Assembly: GCF_902522795.1 (NCBI RefSeq)
Contig: NZ_CABYWZ010000003.1
Span: 34,309-98,308 of the forward strand
DNA from: an uncultured Prochlorococcus sp.
Lineage (GTDB): Bacteria > Cyanobacteriota > Cyanobacteriia > PCC-6307 > Cyanobiaceae
DNA length: 64,000 nt
Reading direction: 5' to 3'
The position numbers were made by a program, and so were the translations under genes. A model generated the notes under the pieces. It was not told where the DNA came from, did not search any database, and saw only the letters and a list, made by a program, of their open reading frames with translations. Below are positions 6,537 to 64,000 of the stretch, piece by piece (within the stretch, counting starts at the first letter, position 1; each line of letters opens with the position of its first letter).

Positions 6537-7016
6537 ATGTCTAATTTTTTTTCCTTTTTTAATAATTCAGTTCTTTTCTGGAGCTTATTATCCTGTTTAC
6601 TAGCTCAATTTTTTAAAATCATATTCAATTTCTTTTCAACTGGAGAGATAAGATTTGGAATTATGTTCGAGACGGGTGGTATGCCTTCAAGTCATTCCGC
6701 TTTAATAACTGGTGCCGCATCAGGGATAGGTTATGAATTGGGATTTGATAGCTCAATATTCGCATTATCAGTTGCTGTGGCACTAATAGTTATGTATGAC
6801 GCTAGTGGTGTTCGAAAATCAGCTGGAATTCAAGCTGCAGAAATTAATAAACTATCAAAAAAACTTGACCCTCAATCTGAATTACTGTTAAAAGAAACCC
6901 TGGGTCATACAAAAGTTGAGGTCATAGTGGGGAGTTTTTTAGGTCCATTAATTACTTTGCCTGGAATGTTTTTTTTAGGTTCTCCTCTCAAAATATTTAA
7001 TTTGATAATAAATTAA
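6537..7016 (+). CDS. Divergent PAP2 (DUF212) family membrane protein
   Basis: 159 residues, with an N-terminal membrane segment and the DUF212 signature GGMPSSHSALITG at about residues 49-61, then YDASGVRKSAGIQA. Low similarity to vanadium haloperoxidase/acid phosphatase folds is recorded for the family, but no substrate is established. It ends with a hydrophobic segment. Its position just after crtE suggests, without proving, lipid or prenyl-diphosphate handling. Its stop codon shares the bases TTAA with the stop of the convergent cobB gene. Confidence 0.85.
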   Translation: MSNFFSFFNNSVLFWSLLSCLLAQFFKIIFNFFSTGEIRFGIMFETGGMPSSHSALITGAASGIGYELGFDSSIFALSVAVALIVMYDASGVRKSAGIQAAEINKLSKKLDPQSELLLKETLGHTKVEVIVGSFLGPLITLPGMFFLGSPLKIFNLIIN

Positions 7017-58098: not shown

Positions 58099-58135
58099 AA
58101 AAAAAAAGACCTGCTATTAAGCAGGTCTCTTTTTG
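58099..58135 (-). terminator. Terminator of porin copy 1
   Basis: GACCTGC (58108-58114) pairs with GCAGGTC (58121-58127) around a 6-nt loop. On the minus strand it is followed by a nine-U run (58099-58107). A T-rich stretch on the other side also makes it potentially bidirectional. Confidence 0.9.
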
Positions 58136-59044
58136 TATGCAGTTTTTTTCTAAACCTATTTATTTAGAGGTTATTTAGAAACTAAAGCTTGTTGTTACAA
58201 CTACACCTGTTTCATCATCACCAGATGTTTCCTTAATAAAAATACCAGGAGTGATTGTCATACCATCATTTAGTGGGTATGAGTATGCAAGTTCATACTG
58301 GTAGTAATCATCAGAAGATAAGTCAGTTGACGCCATTCCAAGACTTACTGATCCAGGACCAACTTCAGCGAATGTAAGACCTGCGAAAATTGCATCTGCA
58401 TCATCATCATCAGTTTCGTAACCAACACTTAGAGAAGGATAGCCTTCTGGTGCAAGCATTGCTTGAACACTCCAGTAAGTAGTAGCTTCGTCATCTGTGT
58501 AAGCAACTGAAACACCATAAGTATCAGCTGTATAAGCAGCTTCTAAACCAATAGTACTAGCATCTTGCTCTGTGAAGAAACCGTCAGTTCCAGTACCACC
58601 ACCAGCACCACCAGCTAAGGTGAAGCCATTATCGAAGTCATATGCGATAGCAAATGCTGAATCAGCAGATCCTCCAACATTTGAAGTACCGCAGTCACTC
58701 AAAAGGTCAGTAAACGCGCTGTAAGCACATGCACCAGTGTTCAGATCATCAACACCTACACCATCACCAACAATTACAGTCGCTCCACCTAGAGGGAATG
58801 TATAAGAAACTCCATCAAGTTCTAGTGTATCAGATGTGCCATCTCCACCCATGAAACCGTCAACAGCTGTTACGTTGGCATTACCACCAATAACAGCTAT
58901 GTCTAATGAATCTTCACCTGTGAAAGATGTTGATAGATCCATTCCGAAATCATAAGAGAAAGTAGTAGCTTCTCCAGTAGCTGAATTTTCTACAGCACCT
59001 ACATAAAAAGTAGATCCAAATGATGCTGATGTTGTTTCTGAGAA
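58101..59044 (-). repeat. Direct repeat copy A: 944-bp porin block
   Basis: As far as I can read, identical to 59366-60309 (offset 1265). It covers the terminator and the mature barrel coding part of porin copy 1 and stops within the SETTSASF codons. Flanking bases differ at once (58100 versus 59365, 59045 versus 60310). Confidence 0.92.
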
Positions 59045-59278
59045 TGAATTCTCATCAATAGAGCTCTCATCAGCAGAACTCTCAACAAGACCTTCACCAC
59101 CAGATAACAGTAAAGATTTATTATCAATATTAGATTTAAAAGATTTTACATTTAAATCAATATTTTCTTGATAAAGATTTGAAATTGCCTCTAAATCAGA
59201 CTCAGTAGCGTTAGCAGTAACAGGAGCAATGAGACCTAAAACAGCAGGCGCCACTAATAAATGCTTAAAAAGCTTCAT
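58175..59278 (-). CDS. Outer-membrane porin, Prochlorococcus type, copy 1
   Basis: 367 residues from the ATG at 59276-59278 (MKLFKHLLVAPAVLG), chosen because GAGG sits 7 nt upstream; a longer in-frame start adds 9 residues without a ribosome-binding site. Signal peptide to about residue 22 (ANATES). A Ser/Asp/Glu-rich N-terminal region unique to this copy precedes SETTSASFGS, after which the protein is identical to copy 2. The beta-barrel part is rich in Gly/Asp/Thr, has two cysteines (ACAYSAF and SDCG) and ends in SFSF, the terminal aromatic expected for Bam-dependent outer-membrane proteins. It likely forms diffusion pores. Confidence 0.9.
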   Translation of the reverse strand: MKLFKHLLVAPAVLGLIAPVTANATESDLEAISNLYQENIDLNVKSFKSNIDNKSLLLSGGEGLVESSADESSIDENSFSETTSASFGSTFYVGAVENSATGEATTFSYDFGMDLSTSFTGEDSLDIAVIGGNANVTAVDGFMGGDGTSDTLELDGVSYTFPLGGATVIVGDGVGVDDLNTGACAYSAFTDLLSDCGTSNVGGSADSAFAIAYDFDNGFTLAGGAGGGTGTDGFFTEQDASTIGLEAAYTADTYGVSVAYTDDEATTYWSVQAMLAPEGYPSLSVGYETDDDDADAIFAGLTFAEVGPGSVSLGMASTDLSSDDYYQYELAYSYPLNDGMTITPGIFIKETSGDDETGVVVTTSFSF

Positions 59279-59283
59279 AAAAT

Positions 59284-59292
59284 TCCTCACAC
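59284..59292 (-). promoter_or_regulatory. Putative Yfr1 sRNA target site over the ribosome-binding site of porin copy 1
   Basis: The plus strand reads TCCTCACAC, which equals nine bases of the conserved unpaired Yfr1 motif ACUCCUCACAC; the mRNA here is therefore perfectly complementary (GUGUGAGGA). It overlaps the GAGG ribosome-binding site. Yfr1 is reported to bind two porin mRNAs in Prochlorococcus MED4. The yfr1 gene itself is not in this window. Confidence 0.7.
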
Positions 59293-59365
59293 AGAATATT
59301 TTCAAATATTAATTTGATTAATAATAAAAAGCAATCAGTAGTGGACAAATTCCCATTCGTCCGAT

Positions 59366-59400
59366 AAAAAAAGACCTGCTATTAAGCAGGTCTCTTTTTG
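59366..59400 (-). terminator. Terminator of porin copy 2
   Basis: Same hairpin as in copy 1: GACCTGC (59373-59379) with GCAGGTC (59386-59392), followed on the minus strand by seven U (59366-59372). It separates the two porin genes, so copy 1 needs its own promoter in the 87 bp at 59279-59365. Confidence 0.9.
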
Positions 59401-60309
59401 TATGCAGTTTTTTTCTAAACCTATTTATTTAGAGGTTATTTAGAAACTAAAGCTTGTTGTTACAACTACACCTGTTTCATCATCACCAGATGTTTCCTTA
59501 ATAAAAATACCAGGAGTGATTGTCATACCATCATTTAGTGGGTATGAGTATGCAAGTTCATACTGGTAGTAATCATCAGAAGATAAGTCAGTTGACGCCA
59601 TTCCAAGACTTACTGATCCAGGACCAACTTCAGCGAATGTAAGACCTGCGAAAATTGCATCTGCATCATCATCATCAGTTTCGTAACCAACACTTAGAGA
59701 AGGATAGCCTTCTGGTGCAAGCATTGCTTGAACACTCCAGTAAGTAGTAGCTTCGTCATCTGTGTAAGCAACTGAAACACCATAAGTATCAGCTGTATAA
59801 GCAGCTTCTAAACCAATAGTACTAGCATCTTGCTCTGTGAAGAAACCGTCAGTTCCAGTACCACCACCAGCACCACCAGCTAAGGTGAAGCCATTATCGA
59901 AGTCATATGCGATAGCAAATGCTGAATCAGCAGATCCTCCAACATTTGAAGTACCGCAGTCACTCAAAAGGTCAGTAAACGCGCTGTAAGCACATGCACC
60001 AGTGTTCAGATCATCAACACCTACACCATCACCAACAATTACAGTCGCTCCACCTAGAGGGAATGTATAAGAAACTCCATCAAGTTCTAGTGTATCAGAT
60101 GTGCCATCTCCACCCATGAAACCGTCAACAGCTGTTACGTTGGCATTACCACCAATAACAGCTATGTCTAATGAATCTTCACCTGTGAAAGATGTTGATA
60201 GATCCATTCCGAAATCATAAGAGAAAGTAGTAGCTTCTCCAGTAGCTGAATTTTCTACAGCACCTACATAAAAAGTAGATCCAAATGATGCTGATGTTGT
60301 TTCTGAGAA
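59366..60309 (-). repeat. Direct repeat copy B: 944-bp porin block
   Basis: Matches 58101-59044 with no difference that I can see. See that entry for the boundaries. Confidence 0.92.
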
Positions 60310-60486
60310 ACTACCAGCTTCAAAATTGTTTAATCTAGCTTCTAAACCGTCTACACGGCTGTTAGTTACTGCAATTTCCTCTGCAGCGTTGAAGTCATTA
60401 ATTGTGACTTCATTTGCAGTAGCAGACAAAGGCGCAAGTAGGCCTAAAGTCGCTGGTGCTACTAGCAAGCTTTTAAAAAGCTTCAT
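59440..60486 (-). CDS. Outer-membrane porin, Prochlorococcus type, copy 2
   Basis: 348 residues from the ATG at 60484-60486 (MKLFKSLLVAPATLG), again set by a GAGG ribosome-binding site; an upstream in-frame ATG would add 21 residues with no signal. Signal peptide to about residue 23 (SATANEV). The N-terminal mature part has an alpha-helical segment VDGLEARLNNFEAG, typical of the short helical region before the barrel in cyanobacterial porins and lacking in copy 1. From SETTSASF to the terminal SFSF it is identical to copy 1. Richer in G/C codons than most of the window, as for highly expressed genes. Confidence 0.92.
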   Translation of the reverse strand: MKLFKSLLVAPATLGLLAPLSATANEVTINDFNAAEEIAVTNSRVDGLEARLNNFEAGSFSETTSASFGSTFYVGAVENSATGEATTFSYDFGMDLSTSFTGEDSLDIAVIGGNANVTAVDGFMGGDGTSDTLELDGVSYTFPLGGATVIVGDGVGVDDLNTGACAYSAFTDLLSDCGTSNVGGSADSAFAIAYDFDNGFTLAGGAGGGTGTDGFFTEQDASTIGLEAAYTADTYGVSVAYTDDEATTYWSVQAMLAPEGYPSLSVGYETDDDDADAIFAGLTFAEVGPGSVSLGMASTDLSSDDYYQYELAYSYPLNDGMTITPGIFIKETSGDDETGVVVTTSFSF

Positions 60487-60491
60487 AAAAA

Positions 60492-60500
60492 TCCTCACAC
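60492..60500 (-). promoter_or_regulatory. Putative Yfr1 sRNA target site over the ribosome-binding site of porin copy 2
   Basis: TCCTCACAC on the plus strand, as at porin copy 1, lies 5-13 bp upstream of the start codon. The shared string extends to TCCTCACACAGAAT at both genes although the rest of the leaders differ, suggesting selection on it. Confidence 0.7.
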
Positions 60501-60666
60501 AGAATTTAAAGTACACCTCAAGATAGTGTATTTGGGTATACAAAATCAAGTATTAACGGCTACACTTTTGCATTATTTGTGCCACTTTCTAAACTTATAC
60601 AGTCAGTTTATTCAATAATTCTTTATTTTTTATTTTTTATTTCTTATAGATTAGTTATTTAGAAAA

Positions 60667-62060: not shown

Positions 62061-62134
62061 CGGGGCGTGGCGCAGCTTGGTAGCGCGGGTGCTTTGGGAG
62101 CACTAGGTCGCAGGTTCGAATCCTGTCGCCCCGA
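62061..62134 (+). tRNA. trnP: tRNA-Pro (UGG), complete; also the left attachment site
   Basis: 74-nt cloverleaf: acceptor CGGGGCG with CGCCCCG, discriminator A; D arm GCGCAGCTTGGTAGCGC; anticodon TGG in the GGTGC/GCACT arm; T arm CAGGTTCGAATCCTG. The last 47 bases (62088-62134) recur at 63746-63792, so this gene was probably reconstituted by an element that entered at the anticodon arm to 3' end, as many tyrosine-recombinase elements do. Confidence 0.97.
62088..62134 (+). repeat. 47-bp direct repeat, left copy (attL-like)
   Basis: Identical to 63746-63792 (offset 1658). It starts in the anticodon arm and ends at the tRNA discriminator base; the flanking bases differ on both sides. Confidence 0.92.
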
Positions 62135-62157
62135 CTCTTAAAAACCAAGTCATACTA

Positions 62158-62182
62158 GCGAGTTACCCAGACTCGCTTTTTT
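62158..62182 (+). terminator. Rho-independent terminator after tRNA-Pro
   Basis: GCGAGT (62158-62163) pairs with ACTCGC (62171-62176) around a 7-nt loop, then six T (62177-62182). It lies inside the element, so the element supplied both the tRNA 3' end and a terminator. Confidence 0.75.
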
Positions 62183-62194
62183 ATTGCAAAAATA

Positions 62195-62226
62195 TGACCA
62201 CTCGAAATGTGGTCAAATAGTGGTCA
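62195..62226. repeat. GTGGTCA repeats: inverted pair plus direct doublet, left end
   Basis: TGACCAC (62195-62201) is the inverse of GTGGTCA (62209-62215), and a second direct GTGGTCA follows at 62220-62226, 11 bp after the first. The 18-bp string GTGGTCAAATAGTGGTCA recurs exactly at 63638-63655 on the far side of the protease gene. Possible integrase or excisionase arm sites; the inverted part could also be a protease transcript terminator. Confidence 0.8.
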
Positions 62227-63588
62227 TTAGTAGACAGTAATATTTCCACATTCGTTTAAAGAAGAATCTTTTATTCCACTTAAGTCTGGTCTTTCCACAT
62301 TTAGTTGTTGAAGTATGTCAATAATCGAAACAGCAAAATTAAGCCCTTGGGTGCCTCCAGTTGTAGTTCTAGCAAATGTATTTATTCCAATAACTTCTCC
62401 TCTTGAATTAAGAAGTGGTCCTCCACTATTTCCTGGATTAATGGCCGCGTCAGTCTGAATAAGTGATGCTCCTGAAGTAGCAAAACCCTCAAAATTCCCT
62501 GACCTTCTGAATGCACTTACTATTCCTCTGGTAATAGTATTTGTTAAACCTCTCGGGGATCCAAGTGCAATAACTTCTTCTCCAGGTACTGGATAACTCG
62601 AATAACAAATCGCTATTGAACTTGGATAGTTTTCTCCAATTGTCTTTAAAACAGCAAAGTCGTCTTCCCTACTAACAAAAATTACATTTGCAAAAAGTTT
62701 CGCTCCAGTTGCTGTTTCAATTTGAATTTTTCCTTTTGTACCAGAACCTATCACATGTCTATTAGTTATTAATAATCCATCATTATTGATAAAAAACCCT
62801 GTTCCCTGTCCTCTACTTGATTTAACAGTTACTACCTTTGGTAAAGATTTACCTGCTATTTCTTTAATAGATGATTCGTTTTTTACTTCAGAAGGATTTA
62901 AAGAAATTTTAGGTATTTCCCATTTTCTAATAGCTTTGGAATAAAGTTGGGATAATTTTTCAACTGTTCCTTCTCCCATTGGAACAAACCTATTGTTTTT
63001 TCTTATAGCTAAACCTTTATAGTCTTTTGTATTTTTAACAAGGTTTATAAAATCATTTGGGAGAGTGAAACGGCCATCGTCTCCATAGAGAGTAAAATTT
63101 TTATCTTTAAATTTAATTTCTAGAGGTGAAGATAAGTTTCCTTCATCTGTAATAAAATTTGGGCATCCAAAATAAGAACAGTTTTCTTTAACAAAATAAA
63201 TAGCTTGAACATAATCTGCAGTCCATTTTGTAAGAATCGTATACTCCTTAATGTTGTAACTATTGGAAAAATCTTTTTTGTAATCCCTATCAAAAACTGC
63301 ATAGTCAACTGACCCATCAAAGCTGGAAGTTAATTTGACGATGTTGTTATAAGGGATTTTAGGATTTTGTTCTGCCCACTCAATATCACTTTCCATCTCA
63401 ATAACCATCAATCCAGTTTCTGGATCTAGAGTGGTTTCCTCTTTTTTTGGTTTGCCATTCTCTCCTTTACATCGGGGCTTATTTTTATAAACTGGTGAAT
63501 TGCAGTTTATTTCCACCGCTTTCGAAGGTTGATTAATAAAAATTTGAGTAACGAACAAAAGTAGGATTGAGAATATAGTTTTTTTCAT
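62227..63588 (-). CDS. Secreted trypsin-like (HtrA-type, no PDZ) serine protease
   Basis: 453 residues with a signal peptide (about 1-24). Residues 28-240 form an unassigned region with two early cysteines (INCNSPVYKNKPRC) and a later pair (ENCSYFGC). The protease domain (about 255-440) has a full triad: His in LLITNRHVIG, Asp in SREDDFAVLK and Ser in INPGNSGGPLLN. No PDZ domain follows; it ends at about LNECGNITVY. Extracytoplasmic proteolysis is inferred, substrate unknown. It is the only cargo gene between the two tRNA-Pro repeats. Confidence 0.9.
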   Translation of the reverse strand: MKKTIFSILLLFVTQIFINQPSKAVEINCNSPVYKNKPRCKGENGKPKKEETTLDPETGLMVIEMESDIEWAEQNPKIPYNNIVKLTSSFDGSVDYAVFDRDYKKDFSNSYNIKEYTILTKWTADYVQAIYFVKENCSYFGCPNFITDEGNLSSPLEIKFKDKNFTLYGDDGRFTLPNDFINLVKNTKDYKGLAIRKNNRFVPMGEGTVEKLSQLYSKAIRKWEIPKISLNPSEVKNESSIKEIAGKSLPKVVTVKSSRGQGTGFFINNDGLLITNRHVIGSGTKGKIQIETATGAKLFANVIFVSREDDFAVLKTIGENYPSSIAICYSSYPVPGEEVIALGSPRGLTNTITRGIVSAFRRSGNFEGFATSGASLIQTDAAINPGNSGGPLLNSRGEVIGINTFARTTTGGTQGLNFAVSIIDILQQLNVERPDLSGIKDSSLNECGNITVY

Positions 63589-63637
63589 AAAAAACCAAAA
63601 TTTATTTAAAATTTGAATTTAGTGTAGTTTAGAAAAA

Positions 63638-63655
63638 GTGGTCAAATAGTGGTCA
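63638..63655. repeat. GTGGTCA doublet, right end
   Basis: GTGGTCA at 63638-63644 and 63649-63655, period 11 bp; identical to the 18-bp string at 62209-62226 and in the same orientation. Confidence 0.85.
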
Positions 63656-63681
63656 AATACTTCATGATTTGTCTTGAGAAA

Positions 63682-63700
63682 GTACGCAAGGGTACGCAAG
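63682..63700. repeat. GTACGCAAG doublet
   Basis: GTACGCAAG at 63682-63690 and 63692-63700, period 10 bp, between the GTGGTCA doublet and the right 47-bp repeat. Confidence 0.85.
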
Positions 63701-63745
63701 AAAATAGTTATAGCTTAAAAACCTAGTGATGCCAATATGTTGTGC

Positions 63746-63792
63746 GGTGCTTTGGGAGCACTAGGTCGCAGGTTCGAATCCTGTCGCCCCGA
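63746..63792 (+). repeat. 47-bp direct repeat, right copy (tRNA-Pro 3' fragment, attR-like)
   Basis: Carries the anticodon arm, T arm and acceptor 3' strand of tRNA-Pro without the 5' half, so it cannot fold as a tRNA. Probably the original 3' end displaced by the insertion. Followed at 63794-63808 by GACTTCTCAGAAGTC, an inverted repeat that may be the old tRNA terminator. Confidence 0.92.
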
Positions 63793-63823
63793 TTGACTTC
63801 TCAGAAGTCTCAATAATTCAAAA

Positions 63824-63860
63824 AGCGATTAAATAGCGATTATTTGTATAGCATTGTATA
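63824..63860. repeat. AGCGATTA and TTGTATA doublets beyond attR
   Basis: AGCGATTA at 63824-63831 and 63835-63842 (period 11), then TTGTATA at 63844-63850 and 63854-63860 (period 10). They lie outside the 47-bp repeat. The remainder to 64000 shows no gene that I can support. Confidence 0.75.
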
Positions 63861-64000
63861 ACTTTGTCCAGTTAATCGGTAAAGTAAAAGCTTCCTGATC
63901 TTATTGATTTTTTTACTGTCATTAATGCAATCTTAGTTTTTTTTACAATTTTTTCTTTGATTATTACTATTAAACCTTTTTATTTTTAATTTAAATCACT

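Follow-up and report, generated by a model that had tools for sequence, protein, structure and literature searches.

Anatomy of the unit and its protease cargo

The window analysed here is a 64,000-nt stretch of an uncultured Prochlorococcus genome (G000, contig C3, positions 34309–98308), and close to its right end an intact tRNA-Pro(UGG) gene (anticodon TGG; 62061–62135, plus strand, ARAGORN) opens a small unit bounded by two copies of a 47-bp sequence that runs from the anticodon arm to the 3′ end of the tRNA. The left copy (62088–62134, plus strand) lies within the tRNA gene, whose 3′ part would be derived from the element as its left attachment site (attL), and the distal copy (63746–63792, plus strand) may be read both as attR and as the left end of the next unit. 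The two copies are identical, with a start-to-start distance of 1658 nt, and the chance of an exact 47-nt repeat is about 3e-26 per position pair at the base composition of the window. Between them a single long open reading frame (ORF; 62227–63588, minus strand, 453 aa) encodes a predicted secreted protease, which is the only gene of the unit; no integrase is found among the ORFs of the unit, and no packaging, replication or capsid-interference gene. The intact tRNA, the exact copy of its 3′ part, the single large gene and the missing integrase had been reported in the original prediction and are confirmed, and its interpretation as the scar of a tyrosine recombinase at a tRNA is supported by the results given below. 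The paired arm motifs, the start of a second element, the other tRNA-Pro fragments and the end of the contig had been overlooked.

Just inside both unit ends the motif GTGGTCA is directly repeated with an 11-bp period, on the left at 62209–62215 and 62220–62226 (plus strand, the first motif 121 nt past the repeat start) and on the right at 63638–63644 and 63649–63655 (plus strand, the first motif 108 nt ahead of the distal copy). Together with an inverted motif TGACCAC at 62195–62201 (minus strand) the arms of the unit account for five of the window's seven copies of GTGGTCA/TGACCAC. They lie in two plus-strand end segments, 62135–62226 and 63636–63745, which are conserved among the cassettes coded by GTGGTCA. 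The left segment also contains a hairpin followed by a run of T (62157–62177, plus strand; z −2.66), predicted as a replacement terminator for the tRNA. A hairpin with a T-run was found in 59 of 199 unit left ends against 0 of 199 unit middles (the unit set is described below); many units bring it directly after the tRNA part, perhaps for re-terminating the tRNA transcript. In the right segment the heptamer CCTAGTG (63722–63728, plus strand) is found 24 nt ahead of the distal copy; it is the reverse complement of CACTAGG, a part of the tRNA core, is common among right ends and takes a comparable position in those of several codes.

Beyond the distal copy the next array element begins (63793–64000, plus strand), with the arm code AGCGATT at 63824 and 63835, 11 bp apart. 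The contig ends at window position 64000, 208 bp past the distal copy, so that the remainder of the tRNA-Pro array is beyond view in the window; these 208 bp resemble genomes G002, G050 and G054 over about 85 bp only, corresponding to the left end that is conserved within the AGCGATT class, and no clean empty site for the window cassette emerged from this comparison. The unit is the tRNA-proximal member of the array, and other fragments of tRNA-Pro lie elsewhere in its genome, on contigs C33 (0 mismatches), C21 (1 and 12), C36 (3) and C6 (10).

The cargo had been described as a trypsin-like protease with a signal peptide, and the matches agree with this: the 453-aa protein matches Pfam Trypsin_2 at 9e-28, carries the HtrA-type motifs TNRHV, EDDF and GNSGGP, and consists of a signal-like N-terminus, a beta-rich N-terminal domain and an HtrA-type trypsin domain, with no PDZ match. 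In a fold search with its AlphaFold model (mean predicted local distance difference test score 78.9) all 50 PDB matches listed were HtrA-type proteases, and none of these 50 matched the N-terminal domain. Of 266 genus genomes 24 contain a homologue well above the generic HtrA level (partial in one), and a tRNA-Pro fragment lies within about 1.5 kb of it in 19 of the 24 and none that near in 5.

The protease cassettes carry differing codes, namely GTGGTCA (the window and G041), GTGCCCA (L089), GCCGTCA (L095, L096) and a GAGCTAG type (L103, L105), and in L095, L096 and L105 the protease unit lies directly 3′ of the intact tRNA-Pro, as in the window. In G041 the window cassette itself recurs at 92.4% identity over 1571 nt among different neighbours, having lost its left fragment and become fused with a GTGCCCA-coded unit, the right arm of which remains visible. 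The possibility raised in advance, that all close relatives carry the protease at this place, is contradicted by both the limited distribution and this copy among different neighbours. The three nearest database clusters of the protease (157, 95 and 15 members) have longest contigs of 1.6–1.7 kb, near the cassette size, which would fit a cassette sitting in many contexts.

Arrays, arm codes and integrases

The original prediction had regarded the unit as a lone minimal element, and this reading was rejected because the tRNA-Pro core (at most 3 mismatches, the intact gene counted) is present in at least two copies in 49 of 61 genus genomes and in at least one copy in 52 of 61; the unit is one of a series of stacked cassettes with code-matched ends. 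In many genomes the core copies lie on the same strand, spaced by a few hundred bases to several kb, with the longest run of 11 copies, including the intact gene, in G002, and the content of the units behind tRNA-Pro differs between strains. From 110 fetched stretches, which were picked for listed fragments, an integrase or the GTGGTCA motif and so are non-random as a sample, cutting between consecutive fragments gave 202 non-redundant units, of which 199 of at least 380 nt were kept and 3 shorter ones left out. The mismatches of the fragments grow with their rank from the intact tRNA (rho 0.54; 123 fragments, 32 arrays), from a mean of 1.06 at rank 1 to 5.67 at rank 7, with 3.4 for the five fragments at rank 8 or beyond, and such a rise is expected if units newly enter at the intact tRNA. 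The tRNA-Thr gene was tried as the site of a second array and rejected, since each of 18 genomes has 1–3 copies, counting the intact gene, and none a long array.

The code of a unit is defined here as a 7-mer repeated in tandem with a period of 10–12 bp at the unit ends. Such a motif was detected in 149 of 199 left and 141 of 199 right ends (shuffle means 3.2 and 4.7, respectively; 6 unit middles), and its period peaks at 11 bp. Codes vary from unit to unit, and the left and right codes of the same unit agree in 122 of 199 cases, against a mean of 15.7 and a maximum of 32 in 10,000 permutations of the pairing; by a shared-8-mer measure the ends agree in 116 of 199 units (permuted mean 12.5, maximum 25), and the first end-match measure, applied to the first unit set, gave 83 of 137. 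In the 8-mer array controls agreement was found across one fragment in 7 of 129 adjacent pairs, between outer ends in 12 of 129 and within the own unit in 81 of 129, and by the tandem-code measure an identical code stands on both sides of a single array fragment in 18 of 273.

As for the code of the window unit, in 27 of 30 loci, which are all the loci fetched for 44 matches, a GTGGTCA pair lies 120–124 nt past or 107–118 nt ahead of the start of a fragment. Such pairs are present in only 33 of the 266 genus genomes, and among 400 family genomes the pattern occurs in 12 genomes and one of 59 genera. Ten GTGGTCA cassettes are alike mainly at their ends, over about 95 bp on the left and about 110 bp on the right. 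Among the longest ORFs of ten units with such ends (one or both), five have no Pfam match, and the others include those for a DEAD-box helicase, a succinate-dehydrogenase-like flavoprotein, a DsrE protein and a PDZ protein. In 20 other small units the genes carried are, among others, for autotransporter and YadA-like proteins, TPR proteins, RTX repeats and an Mrr nuclease. One unit with GTGGTCA arms (L145, about 6609–6884) measures 182 bp, is too short for a gene and may be an empty cassette or a remnant resembling a micro cis-mobilisable element (microCIME).

The integrases of the units are tyrosine recombinases of a single diverse family, which appear to be of the tycheposon type (deep-branching tyrosine recombinases). 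They lie on the minus strand at the right end of the unit, adjoining the right arm, and a tRNA-Pro fragment adjoins the integrase start in 79 of the 84 collected. Integrase-bearing units (32 of 199, a share that is likely overstated since some stretches were chosen for holding an integrase) have a median length of 8.1 kb, and their left and right codes agree in 21 of the 32; the 167 integrase-less units have a median of 1.7 kb, and 101 of them do not exceed 2 kb. In the complete genome G049 a 16.3-kb integrase-bearing unit occurs twice on opposite strands (C1, about 1.076 Mb and 1.290 Mb; L061, L063), the copies being 100% identical across the aligned part.

The arm sequence tracks the similarity of the integrases (Mantel rho 0.55, maximum 0.14 in 1000 permutations; 53 integrases). 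One clade with NNNGTCA/NNNACA arms contains eight type-A integrases with six codes (GATGTCA, GCCGTCA, TTCCGTCA, GCCAACA, GCCGACA and GTGGACA), and by its arm layout the GTGGTCA code belongs with this clade. Among the integrase-less units with matching codes 71 of 101 share the code with an integrase arm, which is a generous figure because any common tandem 7-mer was counted, including the frequent tail GTCAAAT.

The genome-wide search for tyrosine recombinases proposed in the original prediction was performed, and the only ones seen in the unit's own genome were one in a core location, one linked to tRNA-Thr and a broken remnant. The tRNA-Thr-linked enzyme, the second tRNA-linked integrase of this genome, is a 453-aa protein directly behind tRNA-Thr(GGT) with TTAGTGCGA repeats in between (L270:5469–7043, contig C9). 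The core-located one, of 389 aa, lies next to cobO- and pyrH-like genes (L084:696–1865, contig C10); its gene is core-like, and it is related to the integrases of the elements. Open frames of 370–398 aa with a PF00589 match are present in 23 of 26 genomes, the own genome included, and on this ground a single resident recombinase could be supposed to move every cassette regardless of its code; such a supposition is hardly credible, as the codes are highly diverse and follow dedicated integrases, and as GTGGTCA pairs have the narrow distribution in the genus given above.

The exact tRNA-Pro core was also found at 20 sites in IMG/VR viral contigs; with 2 intact tRNAs and 1 truncated site set aside, 17 are evaluable. 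The same code stands on both sides of the core in 14 of the 17 (Fisher p 1e-12 against the array fragments), and the sites of L153, L158 and L165 lack a two-sided code; seven of the 14 carry the GTAATCTAG code, and 8 distinct codes are represented overall. An earlier measure (8-mers with at least 3 G/C), which gave 8 of 18 sites, gave way to the tandem-code measure, since its G/C filter excludes AT-rich codes such as GTAATCTAG. These 14 sites have the lambda-type layout, with the core between tandem arms, and the appearance that would be expected for an unintegrated attP; for the window cassette this layout is predicted from its two ends only. A search of named phages gave one match, in an unannotated faecal phage record.

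Cassettes could in principle spread by homologous recombination or transformation between the 47-bp fragments of different arrays, in which case the arms would be fossils. Such sequences flank every unit, by construction of the unit set, and opposite-orientation fragments are present in stretches fetched from G041, G012 and G052, as this explanation would allow. Fossil arms should drift, whereas the spacing of the GTGGTCA arms is kept in 27 of 30 loci; moreover, the two-sided sites in viral contigs speak against it, and 47 bp is short for efficient homologous exchange. We regard this route as quite improbable.

Probable movement of integrase-less cassettes

There are 44 unit pairs sharing more than 80% of their length, 33 of them integrase-less, and all 44 were compared by alignment with flanks of up to 1.5 kb per side, an earlier pass having used shared 12-mers, which cannot separate diverged from unrelated flanks. 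The flanks of 30 of the 33 integrase-less pairs remain unaligned beyond short pieces (<180 bp), except for a displaced 597-bp downstream match in G058/L139; the other three pairs share flanks, two of them being one contig fetched twice and one representing two close relatives. These 30 pairs fall into 13 families of 76–99.7% identity, each present in at least two genomes without common neighbours; examples measure 3222 bp at 99.7% (G038/G034), 1372 bp at 99.5% (G012/L238) and, with four members, 4.3 kb at 98–99.5% (G049, G002, G050, G054), and two of the 13 are GTGGTCA-coded (911 bp at 98.9% and 2104 bp at 94.3%). Since co-inherited flanks of units with 94–99% identity should align, the unaligned flanks are informative for these units and say little for the pairs at 76%; in three pairs (among G002, G050 and G054) the unit is tRNA-proximal in both genomes, and so the left locus is identical.

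We consider it rather probable that the segment 62088–63792 is an integrase-less, tRNA-proximal unit that was inserted, and can possibly be excised, by a tyrosine integrase acting in trans on the GTGGTCA arms. The helper integrase would bind the cassette's own pair of arm sites, with its N-terminal domain presumably reading the arm code, and strand exchange would likely take place within the anticodon loop (TTTGGGA), since the identity of variant sites begins there. The 3′ tRNA part of the element and its terminator hairpin would restore a working tRNA unit, and fresh cassettes would enter at the intact tRNA, pushing the older ones distally. The helper is likely to be a phage or tycheposon of identical or near-identical code, the closest code found being GTGGACA, and the cassettes would keep only their att ends and borrow the integrase that reads their arms. 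Phage-type integration with a borrowed integrase appears to be the simplest account.

Several observations weigh against this account. Among the right ends of the 84 collected integrases none stands beside a GTGGTCA arm (0 of the 79 next to a fragment, 0 of the other 5), so that no integrase-bearing unit of this code was found among them, and an intact integrase in a GTGGTCA unit is absent from the 30 loci within about 1.5 kb on each side, one of these loci showing a 126-aa integrase piece. A GTGGTCA helper was not found in the 266 genus genomes, the 400 family genomes, the viral contigs or the 21 named Prochlorococcus loci (of 36 stretches, the 15 from other bacteria lying outside this count); the GTGGTCA arm pair was not found in the viral contigs either, and the own genome, which is 92% complete, gave no cognate integrase in the searches. 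Furthermore, 77 of 199 units have no code match, so that many units may be decayed or fused, and inverted shared 8-mers occur in 31 of 199 units (permuted mean 6, maximum 16), so that the direct-repeat layout is not the sole one.

The main rival of the borrowed integrase is decay with mobilisation in cis: internal deletion would have stripped a full tycheposon of its integrase and most genes and left it the att ends, in the manner of a CIME, and the remnant would move only in cis, when another element lands adjacent to it. This explanation accounts for the missing integrases (167 of 199 units), for the decay of fragments with distance from the tRNA and for fused units with a lost fragment, which do occur (G041b), and CIMEs of such anatomy are described in the available part of a published account (PMC7563491). 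The recurrence in new contexts is explained by it less well: integrase-less forms with the same ends recur without neighbours in 13 families, 19 of 29 tRNA-proximal and presumably youngest units are already without integrase, and the ten GTGGTCA units are conserved only in their short end segments, the cargo differing except in one pair. On balance, we hold decay to be unlikely as the origin of the unit.

Beyond the single unit moved by a borrowed integrase, a wider reading is offered tentatively, namely that an integron-like economy of cassettes, driven by phage-type integrases, has its landing site at tRNA-Pro, and that the code would be an addressing system for gene flow. The single-gene cassettes would carry only ends of about 95 bp and about 110 bp with one code each, a virus or tycheposon supplying the integrase of a given code would move that set of cassettes, and one cargo, such as the protease, would be re-packaged under GTGGTCA, GTGCCCA, GCCGTCA and GAGCTAG-type codes. 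Much of the flexible genome of Prochlorococcus sits in islands, and the question addressed is how single genes could enter and leave them without a visible recombinase. If the code is what the helper reads, the helper class of an orphan cassette could be derived from about 20 bp and the order of insertion could be read from the array, and the type-A integrases with six codes would serve as a panel for locating the residues that set arm specificity.

Apart from the unit, the window contains at 58101–60549 two tandem minus-strand genes (376 and 369 aa) for similar secreted or outer-membrane-like proteins with identical C-terminal parts, followed downstream by a 300-bp repeat that is 100% identical.

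Comparison with known mobile elements

Integron cassettes and clusters of attC sites lacking integrases (CALINs) are small, are added at one end of an array and have no recombinase of their own; the site in the window differs from them in being a tRNA with phage-type arms. Tycheposons with 3′ tRNA copies were reportedly described by Hackl et al. (2023, Cell), and Coleman et al. (2006) are said to have described 48-bp PRE1 repeats. The window unit also differs from phage satellites of the phage-inducible chromosomal island (PICI) type, as it has no packaging or capsid-interference gene. The earlier suggestion of a tycheposon-related satellite is supported in its first part, with integrases of one family, apparently of the tycheposon type, in units of related arrays, and is not supported in its second, with no packaging or replication gene in the unit; altogether, the observation behind the original prediction was correct and its interpretation is partly supported.

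Tycheposons integrate at Prochlorococcus tRNA genes and carry cargo (work cited in the available text of PMC10872708 and PMC11389934). The window unit resembles them in lying at a tRNA gene with a copy of the tRNA 3′ part at its far end. It differs in encoding no tycheposon-type tyrosine recombinase (32 of 199 related units have an integrase), in its length of 1.66 kb against 4–200 kb (PMC10872708, available part) and in having a single protease ORF with no other gene of a mobile life cycle; no arm-site code is mentioned in the available portions of these tycheposon accounts (PMC10872708, PMC11389934).

CIMEs, as far as the accessible text of PMC7563491 describes them, keep the att sites, have lost the integrase, measure 1.2–13 kb, occur in tandem with the most decayed copies farthest from the target gene, and derive from integrative and conjugative or integrative and mobilisable elements with conjugation. 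The window unit likewise keeps its att sites and is without an integrase or transfer genes of its own; conjugation genes were not seen in it, no search aimed at them having been made. It differs from CIMEs in that the cassettes here recur without their neighbours.

Additive islands are known from Methylophilaceae, where the last 20 bp of tRNA-Lys are repeated (PMC10872708, available part), and from Alteromonas, with cassettes (PMC5217437, available part). Variable cassettes at one site are common to them and to the arrays described here, where cassettes that vary between strains are stacked at one tRNA (49 of 61 genomes with at least two cores), and the Methylophilaceae islands are also bounded by tRNA-end copies; integrase arm sites, code matching and helper classes do not appear in the accessible parts of both accounts. 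Copies of tRNA-Met have been treated as repeats or as a putative att site (PMC2784084, PMC11389934, in the portions available), and those hypervariable islands share with the present arrays the multiple tRNA-end copies, the unit structure and arm codes not being described in the same portions.

Arm-site codes on such cassettes were not found described in the literature covered, as judged from titles and the beginnings of abstracts, and priority cannot be claimed because the subscription literature was mostly uncovered. From its sequence we read the element as a probable variant of the tycheposon- and CIME-type islands, namely a cassette system with an integrase arm-site code.

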